From the IMG/VR virus record IMGVR_UViG_3300028829_004004, positions 1 to 64,000 of that record: a stretch of DNA of 64,000 bases. One strand, written 5' to 3'. A program made the position numbers and the translations under genes. The notes under the pieces are model-generated. The model saw only the letters and a program-made list of their open reading frames with translations, was not told where the DNA came from and made no database searches. Below, in pieces: positions 9,488 to 57,603 of the stretch; position 1 is the stretch's first letter, and each line of letters starts with the position of its first letter. This DNA is from a virus.

Positions 9488-11332
9488 CTATTTCGCCTCA
9501 GACCAGTTGTCATGCACCCCTATATCCGCGTCCATGGGTACAGTCATTGGGTGAGCGTAGCGCATGTGGTACAGGATGATGTCACACACCTCGCTGGTTA
9601 GCACTTCCTCACACTCGAAGACTACCTCGTCGTGTACCTCTGCTACTAACCACACCCCCTTCCCCCAAAGGTCCAACTCTCTGAGGTCCTCTTTGATATC
9701 ACGCACCGCAGTCATCAAGTAATGGGCCTCAGCCGCCTGAATGGGTGCGTTAACCGCTTGGTTCAGGAAGTCTGCTCTCTTGTGCCGGTGGCTGCTTGCG
9801 GCATCTATCTCCTCACGGTCATACCTCCGTCGCCTGCCCCATGGGTCGGCAATGAAGTAGTTGTATATCACCTGCTTCTCAACATCGTGGTGCCACTTCT
9901 GTATACCTGTGTAAGCACTGAAAAAACTGCGCTGAACACGTTCCCATTCCTTCAAGGGGCCACCGTATTCCTTGTGTAGCTTCCACGGGGTAGCTCCAAA
10001 GCTCATAGCAAAGTTGCAGTTCTTCCCAATCTTGCGGGAAGTGTGGGCAATATCGGCTGTCTGCTGGTGGACATCCAGCCCATGGTAAAACCCCTTGAAT
10101 CCCTTGTCTTTCTCCTTGTTGGAGATAGTCCTCTTGTCTGCTTCCACCCCACACTTAGGACACTGGGTTAGGAGGGAGGTACTGTGCCCGGTTACCCGGC
10201 ATATCTTACACTGCCACGTCGTGTATGCCTCCCGCATCTTCTCATCTCCTGAGATGTCTGCGATGATCCGAAGCTGCGCTTGGGACAGGTCGGCTACTAA
10301 TAGCTTACACCCCTCACGGGTACCAATACATTGGCGGATACTCAGAGGACCGGGAACTACAGGTACGTTCTGCATATTGGGTTTTGAAGACCTCTTGCGC
10401 CCGGTGTAAGTGGTCTGCCAGAAGGAGGGGTGAATCCTACCGTCGATAGATTCTGTACACTTCTTCTGGAAAGGGTTCAGGTAAGTGTTCAGCATCTTTG
10501 ATGCATTGCGGTACTCAAGGATGTCCTTACAGAAAGGGTACTTCTCTGACAAGGTAGTGAGTATCTTCTGGTCTACCTTGTACCCACCCTTTTCTGTAAG
10601 CTCCACGTCCTTCTTTGGGAGGCGCACATCATCGAACAACCGCTCCCCCAACTTAGGGGAGCGGAGAGAGACATCATACCCTATGTGTGGGTACACCCGC
10701 ATCTCTGCATCATGGGCTTTCTTCTTGTATGCTTCGACTAGCTCGGGCATGTGGTTCCAGTGTACTCCATTACGTTCCATATCCGCAACGTACTTGGTCC
10801 CATCCATATACAACCAAAACACATCAAGGACTCCGTCCTCCTCAAGGCCGGGACGCACTACCTCCTGCCACAGACGGAGAGTTTGGCGCACGTCGTCCCG
10901 TGCATACTGGGCAAACTTCTTTACATCCGCTTCAGGGATAGCTGGTTCAAGTAGAGGGAGACCATGGAGGGGGTTAGCCTCGACAAACTCCACCATCTTG
11001 TAGCCAAAGTGTTTCTTTACTGAGTATTTAAGTCCTAGTTTCTTCTCGTTTTCATCTACCAGATTTAGCCCCATCATTGTGTCAGCAATGGCGAGATCAT
11101 CATACGAATCTATGTACCCTGCAATGAGCAATCCGTTGAGGTCAAACTTCAGATTGTGCCCAACCCAAAGGTCATCTTTGATAGCCCCTAATTGTGCGTG
11201 GATTTCGTCTGGATCACGGGTGTAAATCGTGGCTTCCTCAGTACCATCAGTGATAGCCAGCCCTTCCATCCTCCATGTCGGGCAGTACAACTCGGTATGA
11301 TTCGACTCAATGTCTATGCAGATATCTCTCAT
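9488..11332 (-). CDS. polA: Family A DNA polymerase with 3'-5' exonuclease
   Basis: A 614-residue replicative polymerase. The N-terminus has DEDD exonuclease motifs: D7-x-E9, HNLKFD at 59-64 and YARDD at 143-147. Polymerase motif A is VADLSQAQLR (Asp348), motif B is R433-x3-K437-x3-F441, and motif C is VHDE near 566-569. By alignment to E. coli Pol I, Glu710 is replaced by Gln353 and Tyr766 by Phe445, and the Phe762 position is Phe. A four-Cys insert (375, 378, 391, 394) lies between motifs A and B. No 5'-nuclease domain is present. It overlaps the GalE-like gene by 4 bases. Confidence 0.9.
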   Translation of the reverse strand: MRDICIDIESNHTELYCPTWRMEGLAITDGTEEATIYTRDPDEIHAQLGAIKDDLWVGHNLKFDLNGLLIAGYIDSYDDLAIADTMMGLNLVDENEKKLGLKYSVKKHFGYKMVEFVEANPLHGLPLLEPAIPEADVKKFAQYARDDVRQTLRLWQEVVRPGLEEDGVLDVFWLYMDGTKYVADMERNGVHWNHMPELVEAYKKKAHDAEMRVYPHIGYDVSLRSPKLGERLFDDVRLPKKDVELTEKGGYKVDQKILTTLSEKYPFCKDILEYRNASKMLNTYLNPFQKKCTESIDGRIHPSFWQTTYTGRKRSSKPNMQNVPVVPGPLSIRQCIGTREGCKLLVADLSQAQLRIIADISGDEKMREAYTTWQCKICRVTGHSTSLLTQCPKCGVEADKRTISNKEKDKGFKGFYHGLDVHQQTADIAHTSRKIGKNCNFAMSFGATPWKLHKEYGGPLKEWERVQRSFFSAYTGIQKWHHDVEKQVIYNYFIADPWGRRRRYDREEIDAASSHRHKRADFLNQAVNAPIQAAEAHYLMTAVRDIKEDLRELDLWGKGVWLVAEVHDEVVFECEEVLTSEVCDIILYHMRYAHPMTVPMDADIGVHDNWSEAK

Positions 11333-12312
11333 CGTGATTCCTCAGATTGGTGCCAGTTCCATGCTGTCTCGACAATGCTGTTGAGGGTCTCAAACCTTGG
11401 GGACCATCCCAATAAGTTTCTCGCCTTGTTGGCACACGCCACTAGAACGGGTGGGTCACCTTGGCGTCTACTGGATACCTTGAACTGGGGAGGTACTCCC
11501 GCGACTTGTTCTACTGCTGTGATAACTTGACGAACGGAGTGACCAGTGCCAAGGCCGAGGTTGAAGGCATCCGTTTCCCCTCCCTTGAGTAGGTAGTCAA
11601 GAGCGAGTAGGTGGGCATCCGCGATGTCGGAAACGTGAGTGTAGTCGCGGACGCACGTGCCGTCAGGGGTTGGGTAGTCTGTCCCATGTATGGTGATGTG
11701 ATCTGGTGTGGTAGCAGCCCGGATGACAAGAGGGATAAGGTGGGTTTCCGGGGAGTGCGCTTCTCCTACCTCCCCGTCGGGGTCCGCCCCCGCGGCGTTG
11801 AAGAAGCGAAGAACAACACAGCGGAGAGAGTGGGTGTGGCAGTGCCATTTGATCATTCTCTCAGCGAGTAACTTAGACTCACCATACGGGCTGGTGGGAT
11901 CTTGCGGTGCAGCCTCTTGGATTGGTTGTGAACTGGGGGCACCGTAGGTGGCACAGCTAGAAGAGAATATCATATGGCGAACAGCGGCCCGCCGCATTGC
12001 TTCGAGGAGACCCAAGGTATTAACCGTGTTGTTACGGAAATACTTGTCGGGTTCCTTCATGGACTCACCCACATAAGCATCCGCGGCACAGTGTACGACT
12101 GCGAGAATGGCGTAGACCTCGAAAGTCCGTTGCAGAAGCTGGGTGTCTGCGAGGTCCCCCACAACGAGAGGCCCCCACTTGACAGCCCATGGGTTACCGT
12201 TACGGAAATCGTCGTAAGTAACCGGGGTGAACCCAGCTTGCGCCAAGTGCTTGCACACCTGACTACCAATGTAACCCGCCCCACCAGTGACTAGAATGTT
12301 TTGGCCTCTCAT
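11329..12312 (-). CDS. GalE-like UDP-sugar 4-epimerase
   Basis: A 327-residue short-chain dehydrogenase/reductase of extended type. The NAD-binding loop is TGGAGYIG near residue 9, the catalytic region has SSSCATYG and YGESK (Tyr-x3-Lys), and a C-terminal sugar-binding region follows. UDP-glucose 4-epimerase interconverts UDP-Glc and UDP-Gal. In a phage this would feed UDP-galactose or a related sugar to the glycosyltransferases elsewhere in the window. Other NDP-sugar epimerases cannot be excluded. Confidence 0.8.
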   Translation of the reverse strand: MRGQNILVTGGAGYIGSQVCKHLAQAGFTPVTYDDFRNGNPWAVKWGPLVVGDLADTQLLQRTFEVYAILAVVHCAADAYVGESMKEPDKYFRNNTVNTLGLLEAMRRAAVRHMIFSSSCATYGAPSSQPIQEAAPQDPTSPYGESKLLAERMIKWHCHTHSLRCVVLRFFNAAGADPDGEVGEAHSPETHLIPLVIRAATTPDHITIHGTDYPTPDGTCVRDYTHVSDIADAHLLALDYLLKGGETDAFNLGLGTGHSVRQVITAVEQVAGVPPQFKVSSRRQGDPPVLVACANKARNLLGWSPRFETLNSIVETAWNWHQSEESR

Positions 12313-12663: not shown

Positions 12664-12855
12664 TCAGTTCTTCTTCCCAAATTCTCGGTCGAGGCGCGCT
12701 TGCCAATCAGAGTTTATCCTGTCAAGCTCATCCGCTAACTCTCGTAGGTTACGGGCAGCATAGGCACCACCTGTATTCCACCAGTAGATAAGACCGTCCA
12801 CGTCTTGTACAAACTCCTCGCGTTCATACGCTAATTCCACGATGCTCACTGCCAT
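12664..12855 (-). CDS. Small helical hypothetical protein
   Basis: A 63-residue acidic protein that looks wholly helical, with regularly spaced charges and several Trp. The ATG at 12855 overlaps the stop codon of the glycosyltransferase gene (TAATG), which indicates coupled translation. No family is recognised. Confidence 0.55.
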   Translation of the reverse strand: MAVSIVELAYEREEFVQDVDGLIYWWNTGGAYAARNLRELADELDRINSDWQARLDREFGKKN

Positions 12856-13682
12856 TAGATTATGCCCTTAGCGATGTCGATCATCCCTTCTGCCCAGTGG
12901 TCAGTAGAGAAGCGGGCACGGACGAACTCCATCCCCTTCTTAGCAATCGCTGCACGCTCCTCAGGATTGTTCAGGTAGTAGTCAATCTTGTCGGAGAAAT
13001 CATCGACGCCTTGGAACGTACCGAGGTGTTCGCCGGGGGTGAACGTGTCAGTGATCTCGTCGCACTCATTTGTTAGGATGAACCCTCCTGCTGCCATGAT
13101 CTTAAACAACCGATCTGAGAACCCACCCAAACCCGGTTGAGTGAAGTTCAAGTTGATACGAGTCTCTGACACAGCAATGGCGTGCTCCTCCGGGGTGGCC
13201 TTACGACGGAACGGGAACTCCCGTGTATTCTTGTACTCCCTCCGGTGCCAGTTCTTGATCCGTCCTAGAAAGAGGACATCCCTAACTTTGGGAACGTCGC
13301 GGGGGTAGTCAAAGAGAGGATCGTACCCCTCAAACACATGGGGGACACTAAGCTGCTCCGCTAGTAAACGACTGTGATGTACCATCACCGTAGCGTTTCT
13401 CGCCCGCCGACGCTCACGCCCCGACCAGTGGTCTGTACCATCATTGTACCAATAGATTGTAGGGATCTTATCAGTCAACTCCTTGACATGTACAGGGTGG
13501 AACCCTCGGTACTTCCACACAATTGCGACATCCTTACCGGGGATGTTGTCCATCAAGTCTTTGTACACCTGAGGGTTACCGTTGTACTCAACAGGAGTTA
13601 CCTCATGTCCTAGTTTCTCAAGAGCGCGGACCTTCCCTGCCCCTACCCCTGTTGCAAACCTACCGCCGAAAACGATCTTCAT
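12855..13682 (-). CDS. Glycosyltransferase, GT-B, CgeB-like
   Basis: A 275-residue protein with a GT-B layout. The N-terminal strand is MKIVFGG, the middle has LFLGRIKNWHRREY, and the C-terminal half has RINLNFTQPG, then DRLFKIMAAGGFILTNE and a terminal helix. This matches the glycosyl transferase family 1 / CgeB-like group that uses a nucleotide sugar. The first domain is shorter than in most GT-B enzymes. It is set apart from the SSB gene by a terminator. Confidence 0.65.
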   Translation of the reverse strand: MKIVFGGRFATGVGAGKVRALEKLGHEVTPVEYNGNPQVYKDLMDNIPGKDVAIVWKYRGFHPVHVKELTDKIPTIYWYNDGTDHWSGRERRRARNATVMVHHSRLLAEQLSVPHVFEGYDPLFDYPRDVPKVRDVLFLGRIKNWHRREYKNTREFPFRRKATPEEHAIAVSETRINLNFTQPGLGGFSDRLFKIMAAGGFILTNECDEITDTFTPGEHLGTFQGVDDFSDKIDYYLNNPEERAAIAKKGMEFVRARFSTDHWAEGMIDIAKGII

Positions 13683-37603: not shown

Positions 37604-40552
37604 TCACACCCTCTTAGAGTATTTTTGGAACTCGTCTACGAGGAAGTCTGTACTTATTGCTTGCATACATGGGGCTTCCTTAGGGAGTCTAGCACAAGCC
37701 TTCCCTACTTCCCTCGTTAGGATACTCGCCCAACAGCGACAAGAGCTTGGTGTCTTTACGTTATGATGAATGTCATAAGAAGATATTTCCGCTGAGGAAC
37801 TCCCTCCTACTATAACCATAATTGGCTTTCCTAACAGATAGCCAATGTGGTTAGCCAGCCCTTCAACCGCAACGATATGGCGCATTCGGGAAAAAGTGTC
37901 AACAAGCTCATAGAAAGTGCTTACTCTTTTATCCACCACCCCGTCAAGTAAAGGCTCACTAATATGCCCCAATTGATGTACCTTATACTCGGAGGAGATA
38001 CTGGATATGAAACTCTGAAGAGTAGCCAAAGGAAGTTCCTTGCTCTTGAAGGGGGCACCTGCATTAGAGAAGGGCATTATGCCGACATGCCCCTGCCGCC
38101 CTTTGTGCCTAGTGGTCCTCTTCGGTACCCACACACCTACCTCAGCTATCGCTCCTCCCATACCCTCGACAATATGCTCTCCCCTGCGCCAGCACTCCCC
38201 GTAGTCAACATAGTTGAATTCCTTGCGGATGCACTTGCCTGTGGATACTGTGATACTAGGGAAGGTTTTCTGTAAAGGTTCCTTCATTGTCTCGGAGGTG
38301 TGGAAAACAATGGGAGAATTAGTGGACTCAATGACCTTGCGGATAAGCGCAGTTGCCATAACGATGTCCCCAATCCCCTGCTCCCTGACAAGTTTGATTG
38401 TAGGAGGGAGACTCAAAGACTTCCCGAACACTTCTCGTATCGCCTTGCGGTAAATACTCCCCACATTCTCGGGGTTGCAAAGCTCCTGTACCTTTGTCTG
38501 CATGGACTGTGTACGGTGCGCTACCGGGAATTCCCCTTGCTTTATCCTATGCACAATCCGCTTCAACGAGGTCTGGCAATCCTTACCATTACCAGTGAAT
38601 TTTACAAAGGTGACCTCCTTTGGGAAGAGGGAAGGAAGGGACCCTACCTTAGTGCAGACCACAGGGGTACCAACCCAACCAGCTTCAAGCACCACCATAG
38701 GCAGTGCTTCCTCCTCGGAGAGTAGGCAGAGGGCATCACATGACCTGAGCGTCGTTCCTACATCGTCAGAGGGGGGAACAAAATGTATCTTCTCCGAGGA
38801 ACCGCTCTCGTAAGCTATGCGGGTAAGCTGATCCTTGGTAAGGCTATCGCTGTCCATCCCTTGGATGATTAGGTTAGCGTCTAAGTCTCGCATAGCTCGG
38901 ACCAACCATGCAATCCGTTTGTTCCCATCAAACCTACCAATGAACCCTAAGACCGGCTTATCCCCGGAAAAGAACTTCTTCTTGCCCCCGGACAGCTTAG
39001 AGACACTCACTGGATTTGGGGTGAACGACGAGCCGGGAATGTCTTGGCAGATGCCCGGATTCACACAAAGAGTTTTGTCGATCACCGACCCCCAAGTCTT
39101 AGTGAATTCTGACCCCTCTACTGGGTAAGACGTATGGACAACCCGGACAGTTGTAGGTCTCCTTGTCAAGGAGCGGAGTGAAATGCAAAGCCTCTCATTC
39201 ATACCATAGAACAGGATGGTGTCAAACTGAGAAAGGAATTCTGACTCAATCTCATTATCCTCTAAGATAGTCGCGCCGAACTCTGTGACTAACTCGTTCT
39301 TGATGGTGGGCTGATGTCTCACCCGGTAGTTGTTGTATGCAACCACTGTGACATCGAAGTACCTTTTAAGCTGCCGGGTAACTTCTAAGGTTGCTACCTC
39401 CCCACCACCTTTGAGGTAATGAGGGAACACGACTAGCACACGTTGCCGCCGCAGTAGATCAGGTACCCCGCCACTAGATACTCTTGGGGTTACTTTAGCC
39501 TTGGGGAGAGAGATACCCAAACGGGAATTAACTGCTGAGACCACCTCGTTAAGAGAGAGGTTCTTCTGGCAGGCGAACTCGTGCTGACAGTCTTTAGGGT
39601 GGAGGTACACCTTGCCGCACGGGCAGTCCGCTTGGATAGCTGACACGGAGGTGTACATCCTAGCACAGTTCTCCTTCCGAGACGGACCAAGGAGAGCGAG
39701 GGTGGGGGTGTTGCATACTCCAGCCACATGGAGGAAGCAGGAGTCCACGCAAACTACCAACTCAGCAGTTTGGGCTATGGTCACTTGGTCAACCACACTC
39801 AAGTGAGAAGCATCTATCACATCGCCGCCAAACCTCTTAGTAAAGGAACCTTTTCCCAGAACAACCTTGTTAAAATTATCACCTAATTTTTTGAATAGGC
39901 TCTTCCAGTTATTGTCAAACCAGCACCTGTGAGCCGCAGAGGCGTCAGTATGGAAAGCAACAGTCCGCTTCTTCGGGTCAAGTAAAGTAGTGACAGCAGG
40001 GCTAGGGGTAGCTCGCTTTATAGTGGGAAGACGGATAACGGGGTTCTCAATCCGTAGGAACTGGAATGCCCGAAAATGAAAGCATCCGTCGTACACCACC
40101 TGAGGCCCCGACTTTAGAAAGTCTGCGAGACTAAGGACAATGTCAAACTTGTCCCTCCGTAGAGTAGAGGAGACTTCGTCAACCTCCTCTATCAACCTAA
40201 TGAAATCTTCGGCGGGAGGGCTGGGCTTTACCGCAACCATACAAGGGGACTGCTTCAGGTACCTTGCTACTGAGCAAGCGATGATCGCGTCTCCTATCCC
40301 ACCGGGGACCTCGATCAAGATAGAGCGCCCACTCCAATCCTTGGGAAGGGAGAGGTCGGGGGCCTGTGCTACACGGAGTAGCCCAGTGATGTCCAATTGA
40401 TCTTCCTCTACGACCTCAAAGAAGAACCCGCGTTGAAGTAACTTCTCTGCTTCCTCTTCAGAACAGGAGAAGGGAACCCCCTCTACAACCGTCCGTTTCG
40501 TGATGGGGGTAGTGTACCCACCTTTACCTGCTACCATACAGATCTTTTTCAT
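37604..40552 (-). CDS. Three-domain glycosyltransferase (GT9-GT4-GT9 type)
   Basis: About 982 residues from the ATG at 40552, with GGAG upstream; a longer frame overlaps the next gene. It opens with a 50-residue domain (VEGVPFSCSEEEAEKLLQRG) like small phage head proteins. The first ADP-heptose-like transferase domain has IEVPGGIGDAI. The middle GT4 domain has VLGFIGRFDGNKR and a C-terminal VVLEAGWVGTPVV motif. A second heptosyltransferase-like domain follows (REQGIGDIVMATALI). It lies inside the head operon between connector and capsid genes, an odd place for a sugar enzyme. Confidence 0.75.
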   Translation of the reverse strand: MKKICMVAGKGGYTTPITKRTVVEGVPFSCSEEEAEKLLQRGFFFEVVEEDQLDITGLLRVAQAPDLSLPKDWSGRSILIEVPGGIGDAIIACSVARYLKQSPCMVAVKPSPPAEDFIRLIEEVDEVSSTLRRDKFDIVLSLADFLKSGPQVVYDGCFHFRAFQFLRIENPVIRLPTIKRATPSPAVTTLLDPKKRTVAFHTDASAAHRCWFDNNWKSLFKKLGDNFNKVVLGKGSFTKRFGGDVIDASHLSVVDQVTIAQTAELVVCVDSCFLHVAGVCNTPTLALLGPSRKENCARMYTSVSAIQADCPCGKVYLHPKDCQHEFACQKNLSLNEVVSAVNSRLGISLPKAKVTPRVSSGGVPDLLRRQRVLVVFPHYLKGGGEVATLEVTRQLKRYFDVTVVAYNNYRVRHQPTIKNELVTEFGATILEDNEIESEFLSQFDTILFYGMNERLCISLRSLTRRPTTVRVVHTSYPVEGSEFTKTWGSVIDKTLCVNPGICQDIPGSSFTPNPVSVSKLSGGKKKFFSGDKPVLGFIGRFDGNKRIAWLVRAMRDLDANLIIQGMDSDSLTKDQLTRIAYESGSSEKIHFVPPSDDVGTTLRSCDALCLLSEEEALPMVVLEAGWVGTPVVCTKVGSLPSLFPKEVTFVKFTGNGKDCQTSLKRIVHRIKQGEFPVAHRTQSMQTKVQELCNPENVGSIYRKAIREVFGKSLSLPPTIKLVREQGIGDIVMATALIRKVIESTNSPIVFHTSETMKEPLQKTFPSITVSTGKCIRKEFNYVDYGECWRRGEHIVEGMGGAIAEVGVWVPKRTTRHKGRQGHVGIMPFSNAGAPFKSKELPLATLQSFISSISSEYKVHQLGHISEPLLDGVVDKRVSTFYELVDTFSRMRHIVAVEGLANHIGYLLGKPIMVIVGGSSSAEISSYDIHHNVKTPSSCRCWASILTREVGKACARLPKEAPCMQAISTDFLVDEFQKYSKRV

Positions 40553-40566
40553 TACTACTCCGTGTA

Positions 40567-40878
40567 TTAGTCTTCCCAACCCCCAAGGGTAAGGGAGAGG
40601 TTCGGCCAAGGTGCAGGTTCAAGGTTACCTACATGTCTGAGCTTATTGATCTCATCCCTAGCCCACCCGTGAAGCTGCCAGTGCTTGGACAACTGTGAGT
40701 CCTGCTTCTTGTCAAGCTCCGACTTCTGTGAGAGGTCATCAATCGACTCCATCATGTATCGCTGCCGTTCAGTCATTACCTTCATTTCGGCATTCGTATC
40801 GAATGTCCACTTCATTGAGAAACCGACAGCGGCAAAACAGATAGATACGAGTATCCCGTAGATAGCATCTTTAGTCAT
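40567..40878 (-). CDS. Small membrane-anchored coiled-coil protein
   Basis: About 103 residues from the ATG at 40878. An N-terminal hydrophobic segment (YGILVSICFAAVGFSM) is followed by a long helical region rich in Glu, Lys and Gln. The same layout as the gene at 36.0-36.4 kb suggests related roles, perhaps holin or spanin. It starts 16 bases past a palindrome. Confidence 0.5.
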   Translation of the reverse strand: MTKDAIYGILVSICFAAVGFSMKWTFDTNAEMKVMTERQRYMMESIDDLSQKSELDKKQDSQLSKHWQLHGWARDEINKLRHVGNLEPAPWPNLSLTLGGWED

Positions 40879-40970: not shown

Positions 40971-41957
40971 TTAGGCGTAGTCGGTACCACCCTCCGAGAT
41001 GTTGTTCGTGAGAACAACCATGTTGGAGTCTTCCACCTGTGCGTCAGCACGGGTGTGGATGGTAACCTCCCACGAATCGCTGCGAGGCTGACGGTCCCAC
41101 TCAATAGTGATGTCACGCTGGATGAACCAGATGAGGTTATTGAGGGGGGTCAACGGGATCTTCGTGCCGTCCGTTGCCGTAGTACCAATGGTGAGGTCAT
41201 CGGGCATCAGAGGAACTTCAAACAGCGGAATGCCGTAGGGGCGACTGATGAACTGACCCACAAGGGCACTGTCACCTGCGTTAGTAGCACGATCACTCGT
41301 GTCCAGTTCCCACTTGTCGTGGACTGACTGGCTGACAAGCCAGCGGTAGTCAGGCATAGCGACACGGAAGCGAATCGGAACCTTACGCTTTGCGTCATGG
41401 AAGAGCTTCTTGGACGAAGCAGTTCCGTTAGCATCCAGCTTCTGGCCAGCCGGGACGTTGTCGTCAAGGATCTTGAGGAAACCGTCGTTGGCACCGAGCA
41501 GGTTGTTGGAGTCACTCTGTGCATCACCGGTCGTCAGTGAGCTATCACCTTCGATAGCGGCGAGTTCGAGGTCAATGGCGATACGCTTCGAGAACATACC
41601 GAGGAGGGTGTCACGTACACCCGCACCTTCGATGTTGTCTTCGACAAAGTCAGTGACCAAGTCGAAAGCCGAACGGTACTTGACAGTGTCGTAGTCCACC
41701 TTCGACTCCGACGGAGTACGGGTAGAGACACTGGTAAGACCGACGTTGGCACCTTCCGTAACGATGGAACCAAGGTTCAGCTTGTTGATCTCGCCCTTGG
41801 CGTGGTCAACTTTGCGCGTGCGAACGTTCTTCAGCAAGATCGAGTGGTCAATGACAAGGTCAATAAACCGGTCTGCCTGCTTGCGGTTGAGAACGGAGTT
41901 GGGCAGATTGGTCTCGTTGATGGTCTTCGAGAGAAGCTGCTGGGGATCAATGTTCAT
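40971..41957 (-). CDS. Major capsid protein, HK97 fold
   Basis: A 328-residue protein with the usual capsid pattern: an N-terminal helical arm (SVLNRKQADRFIDLVIDHS), an E-loop region (RKVDHAKGEINKLNLG), a spine and a C-terminal A-domain with WFIQRDITIEW and a closing beta strand. It lies right after the protease/scaffold gene and before a strong terminator, as expected for the most abundant virion protein. No delta domain beyond that of the scaffold is seen. Confidence 0.85.
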   Translation of the reverse strand: MNIDPQQLLSKTINETNLPNSVLNRKQADRFIDLVIDHSILLKNVRTRKVDHAKGEINKLNLGSIVTEGANVGLTSVSTRTPSESKVDYDTVKYRSAFDLVTDFVEDNIEGAGVRDTLLGMFSKRIAIDLELAAIEGDSSLTTGDAQSDSNNLLGANDGFLKILDDNVPAGQKLDANGTASSKKLFHDAKRKVPIRFRVAMPDYRWLVSQSVHDKWELDTSDRATNAGDSALVGQFISRPYGIPLFEVPLMPDDLTIGTTATDGTKIPLTPLNNLIWFIQRDITIEWDRQPRSDSWEVTIHTRADAQVEDSNMVVLTNNISEGGTDYA

Positions 41958-49835: not shown

Positions 49836-50418
49836 TGATGTCTTCCAGTTTTTCTTTGGTTTACCCGTGCGGTGTTCCCGCGTTGAGATAAACTTATACC
49901 CGTTCGGAGATAAAACAACCCGGTTTCCAGTTCTTTTGTTGGTTTTTCTTTTTTTTCTTTTTCCGTCAGGAGGATCTGATGGGGGTTTTTCTGATGGAAT
50001 CTTTTGAGGATGGCGAGCGGAGCGAGCCATGCCGCGCCGAATGGCGCGGAGAGGTGGCGCCGAAGGTGCCATCCTCGGAATCTTCCGGCCTACCCCCGTA
50101 GGGGGTAGACCAAAGAAGAAAATGTGTGTGATACAAATGTGTGTGATTCCGATTTCGGATTTACCCCTTTCCCCCTAAAGGGGAAAGGGGTATGCTCGAG
50201 ATCTAATTTTGCACGAATAGGGTACTACTACGAAGTAGTAGTACCTATTCGTACGCTGTAAATTAGTAATCTGTACTATATCTTTAGATATAGTACTAAT
50301 AATAAAATATATCTAAAAAGCGCGTGCGAGCGTGCGCGGAGCGTGCGTGCGCGCACCCGTACGTAACGCGCGTGTATGTGGGCACATACACGTACGTAAC
50401 ACGCGCGCCCCTAGTTGG
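49836..50418. other. Gene-poor region packed with inverted repeats
   Basis: About 580 bases with at least eight hairpins and a GC-rich patch. CCGCGCC/GGCGCGG (50032-50049), CTACCCCC/GGGGGTAG (50090-50108), a 13-bp stem at 50162-50192, an 18-bp bulged stem at 50213-50252 with flanking arms CTAATTT/AAATTAG, GTACTATATC/GATATAGTAC (50273-50296), and CGTGTATGTG/CACATACACG (50371-50392). A 13-base direct repeat (AAATGTGTGTGAT) starts at 50120 and 50135. It lies at the divide between leftward and rightward transcription. Candidate origin of replication, transcription hub or multi-terminator; no function shown. Confidence 0.7.
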
Positions 50419-50628
50419 CTACTGCCCGAGTCGGTTGCTGAGTTGCTGCGCCCATCCACCAGAAGAAGGGGGTGGTTCACTTTGTGTAGTCGTGGTCAGG
50501 TTTAGTTCTGCCACTTCGGGAGCTTTCTTACACCGGGCTAATCCTACGATCAAACCCAAGTTCACCAGATTGAAAGCTGCGCTGCAAATTAGAGCGATGT
50601 CTGTTAGATTGAGGGATGTGTTGTCCAT
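50419..50628 (-). CDS. Small membrane protein
   Basis: A 69-residue protein with one hydrophobic helix (IALICSAAFNLVNLGLIVGLA) near the N-terminus and a Thr/Pro/Ser tail. A GGAG lies 11 bases upstream. It is the first leftward gene before the hairpin region. Holin-like size, but a single helix is not enough for a call. Confidence 0.55.
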   Translation of the reverse strand: MDNTSLNLTDIALICSAAFNLVNLGLIVGLARCKKAPEVAELNLTTTTQSEPPPSSGGWAQQLSNRLGQ

Positions 50629-50665
50629 TACTACGAGTCTCCATTACTACTTCGTTTCTCTGAAT

Positions 50666-50693
50666 ACTGTAGTAGCAAAAGTAGAAAATTCAA
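50666..50693 (-). promoter_or_regulatory. Sigma70-like promoter, leftward
   Basis: On the minus strand TTGAAT (50693-50688) and TACAGT (50671-50666) are 16 bases apart, just upstream of the small membrane protein gene. Confidence 0.45.
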
Positions 50694-50709
50694 CAAAGGA
50701 ATGGAAAGG

Positions 50710-51288
50710 ATGTCTAACATTAACCGAAGGTTAGGTCTGGCGTTTGTTCATATCCCAAAGACCGGAGGAGTCGCTGTGTGCGAGTCCCTTGGGTTAGCAA
50801 TACGAGGGCATCAGCGTCTCTCGGAGATGCGCCGGTTCCGTCGTAGGTACTTCTCTTTCTGCTTCGTCCGCAACCCTTGGGACCGAATGGTCTCTGCCTA
50901 CTCGTACTTCAGGGCAGGGGGAAGAGGCCACCGGAATGATATCAAAACTATGCGCGTTGTGCGAGAGAGTTCTACCTTCCCTGAGTTCTGCTCACGATTA
51001 GAAGACCCCGAGTTTAAGCGAAGGCTAGAGAGATGTCGCTCCCCTCACTTCCTACCTCAGGTCCACTGGCATGACCCGCGGATTAAATTGGTGGGGAGGT
51101 TTGATAACTTTGCGGAGGACTTCAAGGAGGTCTGCACGCAGGTGGGCTTACCGGACACTGAGCTTTTAGTTCGGAATACTAGTGAGCACTTACCATACCC
51201 CGAGTACTACACTGAGAGTGCTGCTCAGATTGTTGAGCGGGTCTACAAAGAAGACATTGAAAAATACAACTACAAGTTTGGAGATTGA
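50710..51288 (+). CDS. Sulfotransferase (copy 2)
   Basis: About 192 residues from the ATG at 50710; the ATG at 50701 is too close to the AAAGGA box, so the second is preferred. HIPKTGG at 14-20 binds the 5'-phosphosulfate and CFVRNPWDR near 51-59 the 3'-phosphate of PAPS, as in the Sulfotransfer_2 family. It is the first rightward gene and is followed directly by an APS kinase gene, so the pair can supply and use PAPS. Confidence 0.8.
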   Translation: MSNINRRLGLAFVHIPKTGGVAVCESLGLAIRGHQRLSEMRRFRRRYFSFCFVRNPWDRMVSAYSYFRAGGRGHRNDIKTMRVVRESSTFPEFCSRLEDPEFKRRLERCRSPHFLPQVHWHDPRIKLVGRFDNFAEDFKEVCTQVGLPDTELLVRNTSEHLPYPEYYTESAAQIVERVYKEDIEKYNYKFGD

Positions 51289-51290
51289 TT

Positions 51291-51785
51291 ATGGTTATCT
51301 GGTTCACCGGGCTTTCCGGTTCAGGGAAGACAACACTCGCAAAAGAAATCCTCAAAGTTTTACCCCGCGGATTCCTTGTGGACGGGGACATGCTCAGAGA
51401 AGGGTTGTGTGCTGACCTCGACTTCGACCCACCCTCTCGGCATGAACAGGCACGGCGGGCCGCAGGAGTTGCCAAGATAGCTCATGCAAACGTTTGCACG
51501 GTAGCCTGCTCTGTGATTACCCCACTGGAGAAAAGCCGGGAGGTAGCACGTGAGATGCTCAAAGACTGTGACTTCAAAATGGTCTATGTCAGCACTCCAC
51601 TAAAGGTCTGTCAGCAGAGGGACCCCAAAGGACTTTACGCAAAAGTTGCTGCCGGAGAGATCACTAAGTTTACTGGAATCAGTAGCCCTTTCTGGCCCCC
51701 CGCACAATACGACTCTGTTGTGGACACAACTGATAGAACAATCACTGACTGCCTTGATCAGATTCTTTCTGATATCGGCTTGTAA
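51291..51785 (+). CDS. cysC: Adenylylsulfate (APS) kinase
   Basis: A 164-residue CysC-like kinase from the ATG at 51291, with GGAG upstream. GLSGSGKT at 7-14 is the P-loop, DGDMLREGLC at 31-40 and the DLDF-x6-R-x-E-x3-R block follow, then RDPKGLY and KFTGI near the end, all diagnostic of APS kinase. It converts APS and ATP to PAPS, the sulfate donor. No ATP sulfurylase is encoded, so APS would come from the host. A palindrome inside is read ANVC. Confidence 0.9.
   Translation: MVIWFTGLSGSGKTTLAKEILKVLPRGFLVDGDMLREGLCADLDFDPPSRHEQARRAAGVAKIAHANVCTVACSVITPLEKSREVAREMLKDCDFKMVYVSTPLKVCQQRDPKGLYAKVAAGEITKFTGISSPFWPPAQYDSVVDTTDRTITDCLDQILSDIGL
51485..51498. promoter_or_regulatory. Dispersed palindrome site 14 (in cysC)
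   Basis: Perfect 14-bp copy in coding sequence, read as ANVC. Confidence 0.8.
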
Positions 51786-51842
51786 TTAAAGGCAGACGTG
51801 CTAGAGTACCTACCAAAGGAATCCAACACATAAGGAATAAGC

Positions 51843-52115
51843 ATGGACCTTGAACGAGAAAAAGTAAATACATTGCGAGAGGCGGGGTTAGGCCACTCGG
51901 TAGCATTAGCAGCGGAAGGGATGTGCCCCACCTGTGCCGAGCCAGTTAGCATCGACGCCCTAGCTGAGGCGGGCTACCTAGCTTTCTACAATGCTTTCGG
52001 GATGTGCCTCGATTGCATTACCCTCCACAAAGAGGAAGACCCGGACGAGCTAATCCTCAAATGTGAACTCCGAGCACATGCTCTCCAAGAGGAGACTTTC
52101 AATGACTCTCTCTGA
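51843..52115 (+). CDS. Small Cys-containing protein
   Basis: A 90-residue acidic protein. CPTC and a later CLDC form a possible zinc-binding set. Its end overlaps the start of the sigma-like gene by 14 bases. Confidence 0.55.
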   Translation: MDLEREKVNTLREAGLGHSVALAAEGMCPTCAEPVSIDALAEAGYLAFYNAFGMCLDCITLHKEEDPDELILKCELRAHALQEETFNDSL

Positions 52116-52590
52116 GCTACAAAACACAGAAGGGTTGGTTGTCAATCTGATAGATAGGATGGCACAAGATCTTCTTGTGTTCTTTGACTTCCGGGACCTT
52201 GTACAGGATTGTATAATTGCGGTCTCAAAAGAGCAACACCGATTCGATGAGGCAAGAGGGAAGTGGTCCACCTTCGTCTCCGTAGTGGTACGCACGGTCC
52301 TTAGCAGGACCCGCACTAAGTGCTACCGGTTACCCCTCTCGCAAGACCCTACCCTCCCTGAGTTCTCGCATTGCCCCGACCCTCACCCTCTACCTTGGGA
52401 AGGTGTGTCCCGAGAGGATATCGCAAGCGCGTACCTCTGCCTCGATGAGAGGGAGAAGAAAGTAGTGGAGGACTTCGTCCATAAGGTGAACCAAGAAGAG
52501 ACCGCGGAAGAGTGGAACATTCACAGGACACGGGTCGCGCAGATCAGAAAGCAGGCTTTTGAAAAAATTAGAACCACCCTCGTAAGGTAA
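52102..52590 (+). CDS. Sigma factor-like protein
   Basis: About 162 residues from the ATG at 52102. A region 2-like helix (FRDLVQDCIIAVSKEQHRFDE) is followed by WSTFVSVVVRTVLSR. A C-terminal region 4-like helix-turn-helix (DEREKKVVEDF, then TAEEWNIHRTRVAQIRKQA) ends the protein. This is the two-domain plan of short extracytoplasmic-type sigma factors. It may direct host RNA polymerase to phage promoters. Confidence 0.65.
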   Translation: MTLSELQNTEGLVVNLIDRMAQDLLVFFDFRDLVQDCIIAVSKEQHRFDEARGKWSTFVSVVVRTVLSRTRTKCYRLPLSQDPTLPEFSHCPDPHPLPWEGVSREDIASAYLCLDEREKKVVEDFVHKVNQEETAEEWNIHRTRVAQIRKQAFEKIRTTLVR

Positions 52591-52594
52591 TCAC

Positions 52595-53407
52595 ATGAAC
52601 ATCTACATCGCAGGACCGATGCGGTCCAAACCTGAATTTAATTTCCCTGCCTTCTTTGAGGCGGCTGAGTGGCTGTCTAGCTTAGGGCTGAATCCCATTA
52701 ACCCCGCGGAGTTCGACGTTGACCGGGGGTTCGATCCCCGCAGTGGAAGAGGGCAGTTGGTTACCCCTGAGTTCATCGCGGACGCTATCCGGCGAGACGT
52801 GGGTCTCATCCTAGATGAGGCGGAAGGGATTCTAATGCTCCCCGGTTGGACTGAGAGTATCGGAGCGTCAGCAGAGTACGCCCTCGCACGATGGAAAGAA
52901 TTGCCGGTGTTCAAGCGAGATGGTGACCTCCTCGTAGGAGAGGAAACCATAGGCCCACTTGATATGGAGTACTCTGAAGAGAAGAAGCAGAAGTTCACCC
53001 CTGACCCGGTGGTCAACACATCTGTCCCGAAGGGAGATCACTTATTCAATGCCAACTGGCCATTCACTGACCCCTCAGTTGAAGAGGAGGAAGACGTTCT
53101 TGAGGAGGCGCTTCGTCTCACAAGAGGCGACCGGCAGAACCAGTATGGCCCACCAGACCAAGACTTCCGACGTACCGCAGATATGTGGACCGCTTTGAAG
53201 GGGGTGAAGTTTGAGCCAAAGGATGTTGCCATGTTCACTATCTGTATGAAGCTCTCTCGGGAGACGCACCAGAAGAAACGTGATAACTGGGTGGACATCG
53301 CAGGGTACGCCCGGTGTGGTCACATCTGCGCTGAGGCCGCGGCACAGCGGGAAGTGGAACAGGACGAGGAGTGGAATTACTGCCGTATCAATCGAGGTGC
53401 AGAGTGA
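52595..53407 (+). CDS. DUF4406 plus DUF6378-like fusion
   Basis: A 270-residue protein of two parts. The first 110 residues match the nucleoside 2-deoxyribosyltransferase-like DUF4406 (MNIYIAGPMRS, later DEAEGILMLPGWTES). The last 110 match the DUF6378 pattern (LTRGDRQNQYGPPDQDF, then CMKLSRE and WVDIAGYA). An acidic linker joins them. A role in nucleotide handling or base modification is plausible and fits the nearby thyX. Confidence 0.7.
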   Translation: MNIYIAGPMRSKPEFNFPAFFEAAEWLSSLGLNPINPAEFDVDRGFDPRSGRGQLVTPEFIADAIRRDVGLILDEAEGILMLPGWTESIGASAEYALARWKELPVFKRDGDLLVGEETIGPLDMEYSEEKKQKFTPDPVVNTSVPKGDHLFNANWPFTDPSVEEEEDVLEEALRLTRGDRQNQYGPPDQDFRRTADMWTALKGVKFEPKDVAMFTICMKLSRETHQKKRDNWVDIAGYARCGHICAEAAAQREVEQDEEWNYCRINRGAE

Positions 53408-53613
53408 AACGTAAGAAAAGACATAACGACCCTGACCTTCGTAGTAAGGCAATGTACATTAGCGTTAGCCTCCCGGTATTACAGGCACTAGAGGGAGTAC
53501 GGCCTCTGCTTAACGGAAGTTCAGGGGCTTACCTCGGGGTGTATAAACATGCGGCAGCTACCCTCTGCCGTGAATTGGAGTGGGAAACTTATGGGGAGGT
53601 GCAAGGTGATTAA
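53404..53613 (+). CDS. Small basic protein, unknown
   Basis: About 69 residues from the GTG at 53404, overlapping the upstream stop (GTGA). Basic start (KRKKRHND), then YISVSLPVLQAL. Possibly DNA-binding; no family recognised. Confidence 0.45.
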   Translation: MKRKKRHNDPDLRSKAMYISVSLPVLQALEGVRPLLNGSSGAYLGVYKHAAATLCRELEWETYGEVQGD

Positions 53614-53944
53614 GGAATTTGACGATATCGTAGAATACCTACTTGACAATGGGTGGACACAATACACAGCATACGATACTAAGGTAGGGTGTCAGGACTT
53701 CTACAAGGTCTTCCCCACGCCTCACGGGTGTAGGGGGACAGGAAACCCCGGAATAGAAATCACTTGCCGGGTACAGCGGTTCATGGATGTAACTGTGTTT
53801 AGTTTCACCCTGCAAGGGGAGACTGTAAACGGAGGGTTCAAACTGAGTCGGTATGACCTTACTGATGATTTCGCTGAGGCTATCAAGGTGACCAACGACA
53901 TGGTTGCCCTGTGGGAAATAGCAAACATACCGAGGGTTGGATAA
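53606..53944 (+). CDS. Small hypothetical protein
   Basis: About 112 residues from the GTG at 53606, with GGGGAGG 6 bases upstream deciding the start. Mixed alpha/beta with Cys near the middle (GCQDFYKVF). Its stop overlaps the thyX start (TAATG). Confidence 0.5.
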   Translation: MIKEFDDIVEYLLDNGWTQYTAYDTKVGCQDFYKVFPTPHGCRGTGNPGIEITCRVQRFMDVTVFSFTLQGETVNGGFKLSRYDLTDDFAEAIKVTNDMVALWEIANIPRVG

Positions 53945-54600
53945 TGAGTATTCCACACGTAGAGTTAGTTACACACACCCCCAACCCTGAGTACATGATG
54001 GCTAGGGTTGCTAGGGTCTCTAATCCTAAGAACCAAGATAACCCTAAGTTTGGGAAATTATTAAGGTATATGATAAGGGAAAAGCATTATTCACCCTTTG
54101 AACACGCCAGCCTCACGCTGAAGGTCACGACGACATTGGACATAGCGACACAGATCCTCCGTCACCGTAGCTTCACATTCCAACAACTCTCTCGTCGTTA
54201 TGCAGGGGACAAAGAGGCGCCAGTGGTGATGCACATACCTGAGCTTCGGGCACCCCACCCCAAGAATCGTCAGAAGTCGGTGGAGACCCTCCCCCAACCG
54301 ATTCAGGACATGTACGCAAGACATATCAATCACCTCTTCACATTAGCGGAGGAACTCTATCAAGATATGCTTGAGGATGGGGTTGCTAAGGAGTGTGCCC
54401 GAGCAGTACTCCCACAGGCAACGCAGACTACCCTCCACATGACCGGGTCCTGCCGTTCGTGGTTGCATTACATTGCCCTGCGTGGCGGGAACGGCACACA
54501 GAAAGAACACATGGCAGTGGCCGAGCAAGCCAAGGGGATCTTTCGAGAAGTATTCCCCACCGTCGCCGGAGCGGTGGATAACCTGAACTGGGAGATTTGA
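53944..54600 (+). CDS. thyX: Flavin-dependent thymidylate synthase ThyX
   Basis: A 218-residue enzyme from the ATG at 53944, coupled to the upstream stop. The ThyX signature RHR at 73-75 followed by QQLSRRY (Ser83, Arg84) is present, as are the flavin- and folate-contacting HMTGS and RSWLHYIALR segments near the end. It makes dTMP from dUMP with FAD and methylene-folate. It would keep the thymidine supply for phage DNA replication. Confidence 0.9.
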   Translation: MSIPHVELVTHTPNPEYMMARVARVSNPKNQDNPKFGKLLRYMIREKHYSPFEHASLTLKVTTTLDIATQILRHRSFTFQQLSRRYAGDKEAPVVMHIPELRAPHPKNRQKSVETLPQPIQDMYARHINHLFTLAEELYQDMLEDGVAKECARAVLPQATQTTLHMTGSCRSWLHYIALRGGNGTQKEHMAVAEQAKGIFREVFPTVAGAVDNLNWEI

Positions 54601-54602
54601 CG

Positions 54603-54740
54603 ATGCTTGTTTGCGTAGACTGTGACCAATACGTGGACCCGGTGGAGGAACAAACTAAGTGGGGGGACCTTGAGTGCCGGTGTGGTGGGACCTTGTTCAT
54701 AGAGGAACCCGACGATCCCCCTGAAATGGAGATAAAGTAA
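54603..54740 (+). CDS. Tiny zinc-ribbon protein
   Basis: 45 residues: VCVDCDQY and later CRCGGTLF form a C-x2-C and C-x-C zinc ribbon, then an acidic tail. It ends by sharing a base with the next ATG. Too short to place in a family. Confidence 0.55.
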   Translation: MLVCVDCDQYVDPVEEQTKWGDLECRCGGTLFIEEPDDPPEMEIK

Positions 54741-55018
54741 TGGGCTGGGAAAGAGGAAGGTTTAAGTTCGTTAAGCCCCCCTCAAAGCAGGCTGAGATGG
54801 ACAGCCCTTTCCATGCAGAGTGTAGGGGGTTTATTGCGGGGATAATTACCGCCATAGTTATCTTCATGGTTACCTTAGCTGCGACGGGTCTCCTCGAACA
54901 AGAAAGAGCGTGCGAAATATTTCTTGACGAACAGGGGGAGATTGTTTGGATACAAGGTGACTACTTGTTACGACATGATGTCGGGGCCTCTTCTCAGACC
55001 AACACCCACACGGACTAG
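54740..55018 (+). CDS. Small membrane protein
   Basis: A 92-residue protein with a cytoplasmic-looking basic start and one strong hydrophobic helix (FIAGIITAIVIFMVTLAATG), then an acidic outer part. Function unknown; a lysis or exclusion role is possible. Confidence 0.55.
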   Translation: MGWERGRFKFVKPPSKQAEMDSPFHAECRGFIAGIITAIVIFMVTLAATGLLEQERACEIFLDEQGEIVWIQGDYLLRHDVGASSQTNTHTD

Positions 55019-55024
55019 CTATCA

Positions 55025-55279
55025 ATGATCACTGGTGCTCTACCTATCCCTCCCTCTGCGTGCCCTTGTAAGGACTATGCAAGAACCGACATACTAGAGG
55101 GAGGACACTCCTCTAGGTGCCCAAATAAAGACCGGGTGGCAGTAGACCTTGGGTGGTTAAAGCTACGGATCAACCACCTAATGAGGCGCGGGCTTTCAGT
55201 CAGTGCCGCCTTTGAGAAGGTGGAAGAGGAACTCTCACGCGAGAAGAAGTATGAGTCAAGAGAACTCAACCCATTCTAG
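55025..55279 (+). CDS. Small Cys-containing protein, unknown
   Basis: An 84-residue protein with a Cys pair (CPCKDY), a later Cys (RCPNKD) and a charged helical C-terminal half. It overlaps a palindrome at its stop codon. Confidence 0.5.
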   Translation: MITGALPIPPSACPCKDYARTDILEGGHSSRCPNKDRVAVDLGWLKLRINHLMRRGLSVSAAFEKVEEELSREKKYESRELNPF

Positions 55280-55291
55280 CAAACGTTTGCA
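55278..55291. promoter_or_regulatory. Dispersed palindrome site 15 (intergenic)
   Basis: Perfect 12-bp core (first flank A instead of T) covering the end of one gene and lying 12 bases before the next start codon. Confidence 0.8.
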
Positions 55292-55303
55292 TGGAGAAAA
55301 CCG

Positions 55304-55987
55304 ATGGACAAAGTAATCCTCAGTATGCACTTCGAGAAGTGCGGTGGCACTACCCTCAGATACTTCTGGAAGAAATCCTTCAACGACTCTGAGTTCTTCT
55401 TATACGAGCCTCACCTCTATGAGCATAACGTCCTCATAGAAGAGATTGATGAGGGCGTGGGGCAGTACAAAGATGTTAAGGTAATTCACGGACACTTCGC
55501 GCATGGGCTGCACCTTTCCCTAACAAGACCGTGTGAGTACGTGTGCGTCCTCCGTGATCCAGTGGATCGGTTCATTAGTCACTTCAACCATTGGCGGGAG
55601 TGGGGTCAGGCACCCGCGGGGAGTAACGTCACCGGACAAAAGATAACGATCGAAGAGTTCCTTGAAGACCCCAGCAGTAACAGCATACGCAACCTCATGA
55701 CGAAGAGGTTAGCGGGGTTAGGGTTAACGACAGACGCTACTTGCGAGGACTTCGAGGAGGCAGCTAAGAACCTCAGTGCCTTTTCCGCGGTGGGTTTTGT
55801 TGATAACCTCCCAGAGTTTGGTAAAGAGATCGCGCACAAGTTCGGGTTGAAGGATGCTAACTGTGACTTCAAACTAAACTCCCAGAGACTCGGGACGGTG
55901 AAGCACAAGTTGCCTAAAGAAACGTTAGAGAAGATAGAGATTCTGAACTATTGGGACAGACGGCTCTACAACTCAGTAGTAAAGTAG
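55304..55987 (+). CDS. Sulfotransferase (copy 3)
   Basis: A 227-residue Sulfotransfer_2-like protein. HFEKCGGTT at 9-17 is the phosphosulfate-binding loop and VLRDPVDRF at 82-90 the 3'-phosphate site, with a final NYWDRRLY. It probably transfers sulfate from PAPS to a glycan. The other two copies and the APS kinase make a complete supply-and-use set except for ATP sulfurylase. Confidence 0.8.
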   Translation: MDKVILSMHFEKCGGTTLRYFWKKSFNDSEFFLYEPHLYEHNVLIEEIDEGVGQYKDVKVIHGHFAHGLHLSLTRPCEYVCVLRDPVDRFISHFNHWREWGQAPAGSNVTGQKITIEEFLEDPSSNSIRNLMTKRLAGLGLTTDATCEDFEEAAKNLSAFSAVGFVDNLPEFGKEIAHKFGLKDANCDFKLNSQRLGTVKHKLPKETLEKIEILNYWDRRLYNSVVK

Positions 55988-56572: not shown

Positions 56573-56746
56573 GTGCTCACTATTATGATATGCTGTCCTT
56601 GGGGGCGCGGGTTAGTCTCCGTAGTATGGGAAGCCCGGAGTGAGGTCAAGCGGTACCGGATCTCATTCTTCCTACGTAAAGGCCAGAGGTTCCCTTCCCC
56701 TCCCCACGTCCTACGACTAGGGCGTATTGTAGAGGTCACCAAATGA
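56573..56746 (+). CDS. Small basic protein, unknown
   Basis: 57 residues from the GTG at 56573, with a Cys pair and an Arg/Pro-rich tail, ending as ATGA on the glycosyltransferase start. No recognisable family. Confidence 0.4.
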   Translation: MLTIMICCPWGRGLVSVVWEARSEVKRYRISFFLRKGQRFPSPPHVLRLGRIVEVTK

Positions 56747-57603
56747 GCAACGGTGTCTTTTACTACTCCAACTTTGCTAAGATCACTCCACTGTTAGCAG
56801 TGTCCATCCACAGTCTCCGAAAGTTCTACGATGGTGCCATCCACGTCTGCTTCGGTCCTAGTACCCCCGAGTTCTTTTTGAACGAGGCTCGCAACAGTAA
56901 GGACTTTACACATAATGTAGTAGACAAACTTTACTACGAGGGGAGAGTGAAGACCGCGCAGCAAGGATGGTACGAAAAGCCCTTTGCCCTAAAACACCAC
57001 TCCCCCTTTGAGAACACCTTGTTCTATGATGTCGATCATGTCTTCTACAAAGGGTTAGACCCCGCATTATTCCAGCTTATAGAGAAGGAAGGTATCTTCT
57101 CGGCTGTTGCAGAGGGTCTCCCCCGGAGGAACCGGAAGATATGCCAAGAGATCAAAGCGGCTACAGGGGTTGAGTTAGAAAACTCCCCAAGGATTAGTGG
57201 TGCCTGCATAGGATACAATAAGCAGTCAGGTTATGTGGACGATTGGATTCATTGGTTTCGGGTATTCCGAAAATACGGGCGAGGGGCCATAGGAAGAAAC
57301 AGTGAGGAGTTCGGGTTAGGGTTTGTGTTCAACCACCTCGGCAAAGGGGTGAGGATACCCCCTGACATTAGCTATGGGTACCCACGCAGAGGTCTCTTGA
57401 CTGAAGTACCTGAAGGGGTGACTGCCATCCACTTCTGTGCAGGTCGGTACTCACGCGGGGAACTCTGGTCAAAAGCCTACGCCGAAGCGTACAAGGCAGA
57501 CTACATGGGTACACGGCGTCTCCTAGAGGAGTACGCTAAAGCTAATGGGGCAGTAGCTCGATTAAAGAACAATCTGGGTGATAAAGTGAGTGGACCAGCT
57601 TGA
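56743..57603 (+). CDS. Glycosyltransferase, GT8-like
   Basis: A 286-residue GT-A enzyme. The opening VFYYSNFAKITPLLAVSIHS and the LFYDVDHVFYKGLD segment (D96-x-D98) match GT8-type transferases; AIHFCAGRYSRG near the end supplies a late His. It would add a sugar to a phage or host acceptor. Encoded among sulfotransferase and methyltransferase genes. Confidence 0.65.
   Translation: MSNGVFYYSNFAKITPLLAVSIHSLRKFYDGAIHVCFGPSTPEFFLNEARNSKDFTHNVVDKLYYEGRVKTAQQGWYEKPFALKHHSPFENTLFYDVDHVFYKGLDPALFQLIEKEGIFSAVAEGLPRRNRKICQEIKAATGVELENSPRISGACIGYNKQSGYVDDWIHWFRVFRKYGRGAIGRNSEEFGLGFVFNHLGKGVRIPPDISYGYPRRGLLTEVPEGVTAIHFCAGRYSRGELWSKAYAEAYKADYMGTRRLLEEYAKANGAVARLKNNLGDKVSGPA

Follow-up and report, generated by a model that had tools for sequence, protein, structure and literature searches.

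The window analysed here comprises bases 1-64000 of the 65,525-base IMG/VR virus record IMGVR_UViG_3300028829_004004, which is classed as linear and possibly incomplete at its ends. Its genes match terminase, portal, head protease, tape measure and baseplate-type families, indicating a tailed phage, and they include a kinase of adenosine 5'-phosphosulfate (APS), a sulfotransferase placed immediately upstream of it (ST1), two further sulfotransferases (ST2 and ST3) and several sugar enzymes (Table 1). An initial annotation of this DNA had proposed an APS kinase and three sulfotransferases that would use its product, 3'-phosphoadenosine 5'-phosphosulfate (PAPS), as sulfate donor, and all four genes were recovered where it had placed them. 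The kinase and sulfotransferase family assignments can be regarded as practically certain.

Table 1. Coordinates of the sulfation genes and of associated features, in the window unless another locus (L number) is given
Feature	Position	Strand	Basis
ST1, PAPS-dependent sulfotransferase (Sulfotransfer_2)	50713-51288	+	PF03567, E 2.6e-11; phrog_3347, E 9e-22
ST1 motifs VHIPKTGG (5'-phosphosulfate-binding) and VRNPWDRMVSAY (3'-phosphate-binding)			read from sequence
APS kinase (CysC-type)	51291-51785 (alternative TTG start 51285)	+	PF01583, TIGR00455, PDB alignment, residue survey
ST2, sulfotransferase (Sulfotransfer_2/_1, weak)	55304-55987	+	PF03567, 28.6 bits; PF00685, 25.4 bits
ST2 motifs FEKCGGTT and LRDPVDRFISHF
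ST3, GMHRSGTS-type sulfotransferase (Sulfotransfer_3 family via relatives)	5745-6413	-	alignment members, AlphaFold2 (AF2) fold
Double glycosyltransferase, 1001 aa (GT9-like + GT4-like)	37604-40609	-	PF00534, E 6e-20; PF01075, E 1.9e-8
GalE, UDP-glucose/galactose 4-epimerase (nucleotide-sugar supply)	11329-12312	-	TIGR01179, 415.6 bits (cut-off 262.3)
Glycosyltransferase (Glyco_trans_1_2)	12855-13682	-	PF13524, E 3e-25
Putative GT-A-like glycosyltransferase	56743-57603	+	motif FYDVDHVFY (DxD-type) read from sequence
Major capsid protein (possible sulfoglycan carrier)	40971-41957	-	tblastn to annotated major capsid proteins, ~30% identity
Small adenylyltransferase	L033:6495-6959; also L008, L011, L019, L052, L055, L070, others

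The kinase matched PF01583 (E 2.8e-42, 144.8 bits against a cut-off of 21.1) and, with 153.2 bits, exceeded the cut-off of 138.7 for TIGR00455 (NCBI apsK), while remaining under that of the PRK03846 subfamily (152.3 vs 163). Its top match in the PDB was Mycobacterium tuberculosis CysC (E 1.8e-32), with an alignment extending nearly from end to end. The P-loop GLSGSGKTT and the motifs DGD, RDPKGLY and FTGI are intact, and two signatures deviate, EN-x-RR being replaced by EQ-x-RR and ISP by ITP. The 80 best cellular matches share 39-50% identity with the protein, which in the tree forms a 100/100 clade with the kinase of a related virus (L006) on a long branch, with mostly viral rows around it and one archaeal row near. 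A recent host origin was considered and ruled out on these grounds, the low cellular identity and the long, mainly viral branch indicating that the kinase was not recently acquired.

ST1 exceeds a Pfam sulfotransferase cut-off and contains both types of PAPS-binding motif, as does, more weakly, ST2. The start of ST1 was chosen by homology with its counterparts in L006 and L077, another in-frame ATG being present upstream at 50701. Its stop codon occupies 51286-51288; for the kinase, ATG 51291 is the likelier start and TTG 51285 the alternative, so that the two genes abut or overlap; the earlier statement that the kinase gene directly follows a sulfotransferase gene is thereby upheld. A GGAG lies 7 nt upstream of the kinase ATG in the window and in L006 alike, and, judging from this layout, ST1 and the APS kinase are translationally coupled.

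The pair is retained, in unchanged order, in two distant relatives, IMGVR_3300000117_000648 (L077/L148) and 3300021356_000134 (L006/L149), whose terminases are ~79% identical to that of the window. Identity to the window amounts there to 51% for ST1 and to 67%, and 83% over 65 aa, for the kinase. A third record, L147, is identical to the window across the 18.6 kb compared; all other relatives found were distant. Synonymous sites of the pair are saturated in the two relatives (proportion of synonymous differences, pS, 0.75-0.86) versus a proportion of non-synonymous differences (pN) of 0.09-0.34, hence both proteins have been kept, and the pair is, by this measure, under strong purifying selection.

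ST2 exceeds, weakly, the cut-off of 22 that applies to both PF03567 and PF00685. ST3 by itself has no Pfam match; it is part of a viral family characterised by the sequence signature GMHRSGTS...NPKG.FE...KDPR, in whose alignment 20/23 members match Sulfotransfer_3 (PF13469). The AF2 model of ST3, built on the family alignment, reached a predicted local distance difference test score (pLDDT) of 89.6, and its 12 best Foldseek matches in the PDB are sulfotransferases, with tyrosylprotein sulfotransferases on top at 15-18% identity. Given the assignment of its relatives to PF13469 and the sulfotransferase fold, the count of three sulfotransferases is right and the third of them, at 5745, stands as annotated. 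Comparison of ST2 and ST3 with annotated phages yielded nothing useful. All three genes are thus present, although they do not behave as a conserved set: ST1 and the kinase are kept, ST2 is absent at the syntenic place in L006/L149, and the ST3 region falls outside the stretches compared in the relatives.

How general this pairing is was evaluated on viral contigs, among which a query with the single kinase sequence found nothing, while a query with the alignment returned 99 stretches encoding APS kinases; 80 were kept and 50 non-redundant records analysed. A sulfotransferase above cut-off occurs in 26 of the 50 (Sulfotransfer_2 in 14 and Sulfotransfer_3 in 14), and in 15 of them it lies at most 5 kb from the kinase, versus 4.3 expected for random placement on the same contigs; none of 20,000 random runs reached 15. 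When the window's relatives were left aside and only contigs of at least 50 kb considered, 11 of 20 had one within 5 kb versus 2.0 expected. In an independent control set anchored on ThyX, a sulfotransferase is found in 3/35 records and within 5 kb in 1, and proximity differs between the APS-kinase and ThyX-anchored records with relatives excluded (Fisher p 0.003). CysD/CysH-type genes exceeded their cut-offs in just 4/50 records. Since sulfotransferases are frequent and CysD/CysH rare beside these kinases, viral 'cysC' appears, to judge from gene content, to serve mainly in providing PAPS for sulfation rather than as the assimilatory gene of its usual label. Sugar epimerases/dehydratases, sulfotransferases and a cytidylyltransferase-like family are among the nearest neighbours of viral APS kinases, and in phage L033 a sulfotransferase, a GT10, an FkbM methyltransferase and the APS kinase form one gene run. 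In the reverse direction, an APS kinase is within reach in only 2 of 61 ST1-like loci, hence most phage sulfotransferases have no kinase nearby.

Several arrangements were recorded along the way. One viral contig carries three tandem ST1-like sulfotransferase genes with no APS kinase nearby (L086:5408-7327). The phage APS kinases at L011:5923-6864 (weak Pfam match), L019:5914-6879 and L021:5701-6864 bear a C-terminal HAD-phosphatase-like domain, possibly a phosphatase recycling 3'-phosphoadenosine 5'-phosphate, and that of L021 also an N-terminal DUF2061. 'Pseudomonas phage Y4' (OQ572406, UNVERIFIED) was considered as a phage precedent and not counted, as it reads as bacterial chromosome; its stretch OQ572406.1 23272-29718 (L002) contains a histidine kinase, a glycosyltransferase, O-antigen-type genes, a 414-aa sulfotransferase-like gene and an APS kinase.

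Regarding possible acceptors, the 1001-aa double glycosyltransferase is encoded between the capsid genes and a head-tail adaptor gene; both relatives (L148 and L149) have it at the corresponding position with 66-67% identity, whereas annotated phages gave zero matches to it. The gene at 56743-57603 had no match in family searches (Pfam, phrog, NCBI), its assignment as a glycosyltransferase being inferred only. Around the ST1-kinase pair, a Sigma-70 region 2/4-like protein is encoded directly downstream (52084-52590) and may act as a phage sigma factor of the operon, and a divergent intergenic stretch of ~630 bases (50073-50700), likely a promoter region, separates it from the structural operon. 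A Megablast comparison of the first 25 kb with phages gave zero matches; the record contains no tRNAs and therefore offers no host clue from them.

Neither ATP sulfurylase (PF01747) nor the PAPS reductase/CysD family (PF01507, CysD/CysH) was found in the record, which may be incomplete, and no assimilatory sulfate reduction set, with CysH or CysD/Sat beside the kinase, is present in it. The claim that ATP sulfurylase is the only missing component agrees with this absence. In bacteria with APS reductase, APS is reduced directly, so that ATP sulfurylase is present and there is little PAPS; a kinase without a sulfurylase fits hosts of this type, which make APS but little PAPS.

Considering these observations together, the favoured explanation, to which we assign a probability of about 0.55, is that the phage produces a sulfate donor itself and uses it to sulfate glycans of its own making, most likely on the virion. 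Host ATP sulfurylase would produce APS, which the phage kinase would convert to PAPS. The sulfate would then be transferred by ST1, whose translation is in tandem with that of the kinase, and further transfers would be added by ST2 and ST3. The acceptors would be sugar chains built by the phage GalE and glycosyltransferases, and the virion would carry the resulting sulfated glycans. PAPS supply for the sulfotransferases is the best reading of the kinase, and a highly probable one, because kinase and transferase are genuinely paired, in a conserved manner and in many phages; in this respect the donor role proposed initially gains a conserved context, with the role itself staying a prediction. 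A glycan acceptor is plausible because the phage encodes sugar enzymes, and we consider it somewhat favoured. The virion appears as the most likely carrier because the large double glycosyltransferase lies inside the capsid/head-tail gene block, the preference for the virion over the host surface being nonetheless tentative. Of the glycan targets suggested at first, on virion or host surface, the sugar part is thus made plausible by GalE and the glycosyltransferases, and the site is only inferred.

A number of points weigh against this explanation. The ST1-kinase operon includes ThyX and the sigma-like gene and lies on the strand opposite to the structural genes, and the timing of the two may differ. 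Neither ST2 nor the glycosyltransferase-like gene at 56743 is conserved in the relatives, the stretch of L149 syntenic to this region holding neither of them. The Asn of EN-x-RR, near-invariant and a probable contact to APS, is present in 125/130 kinases, and its replacement by Gln, found in 2/130 (the window and L006 clade only), could alter APS use. The contigs of the ThyX control are shorter, and length is therefore a partial confounder of the record-level contrast, which makes it weaker evidence than the placement test within records, on which length has no bearing. Some of the 50 viral records cluster with bacterial kinases in the tree, and several may be bacterial or prophage-flank DNA. 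Finally, both the enzyme activity and the sulfated product are predictions from sequence.

The separation of the ST1-kinase operon from the structural operon, in the company of metabolic and sigma-like genes, would also suit sulfotransferases acting on host surface glycans (lipopolysaccharide or capsule), by which receptors would be masked or other phages excluded. Phage glycosyl- and acyltransferases often modify the host O-antigen, and a sulfotransferase, a glycosyltransferase and an APS kinase occur together in the Pseudomonas aeruginosa sugar cluster deposited as phage Y4. On the contrary, the conserved double glycosyltransferase resides inside the head gene block, and no O-antigen flippase or polymerase was detected among the genes searched (some open reading frames were not covered); a host-surface target is the less probable reading, yet a serious rival. 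Among solved structures, tyrosylprotein sulfotransferases come closest to the fold of ST3, and RaxST-type systems couple a sulfotransferase with PAPS supply, which raises in turn the question of whether protein tyrosines of virion or host, rather than sugars, are sulfated. The low identity of ST3 to those enzymes, the membership of ST1 in Sulfotransfer_2 and phrog_3347 (Galactose-3-O-sulfotransferase), mostly carbohydrate enzymes, and the abundance of sugar enzymes in the genome render tyrosine sulfation quite improbable.

The residue survey is also relevant to whether the kinase has shifted to a different substrate and makes no PAPS, the sulfotransferases then using that of the host: in addition to the Gln confined to the window clade, ITP for ISP occurs in 5/130 kinases, and the branch in the kinase tree is long. 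Against such a drift, which we hold to be very unlikely, the remaining signature residues are intact, the TIGR00455 cut-off is exceeded, and purifying selection acts on the gene, which is still coupled to ST1. Even less probable appears a kinase that is an ordinary auxiliary metabolic gene for assimilatory sulfate reduction (cysteine supply), with ST1 as an incidental neighbour. Viral cysC is listed in this manner in reviews and virome surveys (PMC12713726, PMC12766990, PMC8066274), and three neighbours of viral APS kinases match the PAPS_reduct family; nevertheless, the record is devoid of PAPS reductase, CysD and Sat, the companions of viral APS kinases are sulfotransferases and not CysD/CysH, and the coupled ST1-kinase order is kept in relatives.

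A further component emerged from the comparison of viral kinases. In 22 of the 50 records a phage-specific CTP_transf_like/NMNAT-like adenylyltransferase of 132-155 aa, ~60% identical between most aligned phages, adjoins the kinase or lies less than 1 kb away; at L044:5911-6954 it is fused to the APS kinase, and L053 holds a further, more divergent copy 0.8 kb from the kinase. The other viral loci compared, which have no APS kinase, and 80 cellular kinase loci did not contain it; six genomes searched for it gave weak partial matches only, and the window phage has no copy. It is tempting, as a guess, to see in it a compact ATP sulfurylase. Among solved structures, archaeal NMN adenylyltransferases are its closest relatives, and an NAD-related role is also possible because related kinase-adenylyltransferase proteins of Casjensviridae phages adjoin a NADAR gene. 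Two cultured phages, Xanthomonas phage AhaSv (L386:3078-3824) and Stenotrophomonas phage Bhz60 (L385:3087-3827), encode proteins of 246-248 aa, annotated as kinase or hypothetical, whose C-terminal part is related to the small adenylyltransferase; in Bhz60 the adjacent gene is annotated NADAR. A widespread tailed-phage pathway for sulfated virion glycans, in which this protein would supply the sulfurylase step in many phages as part of a minimal phage PAPS synthase and the window phage would represent a stripped version dependent on host APS, is speculative and, in our estimation, unlikely.

A dedicated PAPS supply linked to a sulfotransferase, as seen here, is also characteristic of NodP/NodQ-NodH (rhizobial Nod factor) and RaxP/RaxQ-RaxST (Xanthomonas); those systems are, however, bacterial, include ATP sulfurylase and act on a lipochitooligosaccharide or a peptide. 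Among viruses, the glycan clusters of Moumouvirus australiensis and Cotonvirus japonicus encode a SAT/APS kinase (Ma457), a sulfotransferase (Ma461) and a multi-domain glycosyltransferase (Ma468), and their sulfated sugars were proposed, not validated (PMC10117803). These clusters share with the window phage an APS kinase, a sulfotransferase, nucleotide-sugar enzymes and a large multi-glycosyltransferase protein. They belong, on the contrary, to giant eukaryotic viruses (of amoebae) and have the kinase fused to ATP sulfurylase, whereas the tailed phage has a stand-alone kinase and three short sulfotransferases, with its genes at several places instead of in one contiguous cluster. The viral cysC genes already listed are APS kinases of aquatic viruses filed under assimilatory sulfate reduction, in contrast to the sulfotransferase partner of the window phage and of roughly half the viral records analysed, among which CysD/CysH-type genes are rare. 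The 'sulfotransferase' of Stenotrophomonas phage DLP_6 (phrog_3347) shares its family with ST1, and a complete APS kinase had no match in that phage. A full-text search of the open literature, with subscription journals mostly outside it, found no paper on a phage sulfotransferase with an APS kinase. The initial view that no such phage system had been described therefore holds, within the literature searched, for the tailed-phage pairing, and yields to precedent in the giant-virus cluster and the listed viral cysC genes. What is described here is a virus-encoded sulfation gene set of a kind earlier reported in giant viruses, now seen in a tailed phage and, on the evidence presented, widespread.

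For viral cysC, a commonly reported auxiliary metabolic gene, the co-occurrence data argue for a shift of interpretation from sulfur assimilation towards, mostly, PAPS for sulfation, and a defined gene set becomes available for testing. If the virions carry sulfated glycans, these would represent a new surface chemistry for tailed phages, and sulfated virions would differ in adsorption, in stability and in how far they evade recognition by the host or in the environment.

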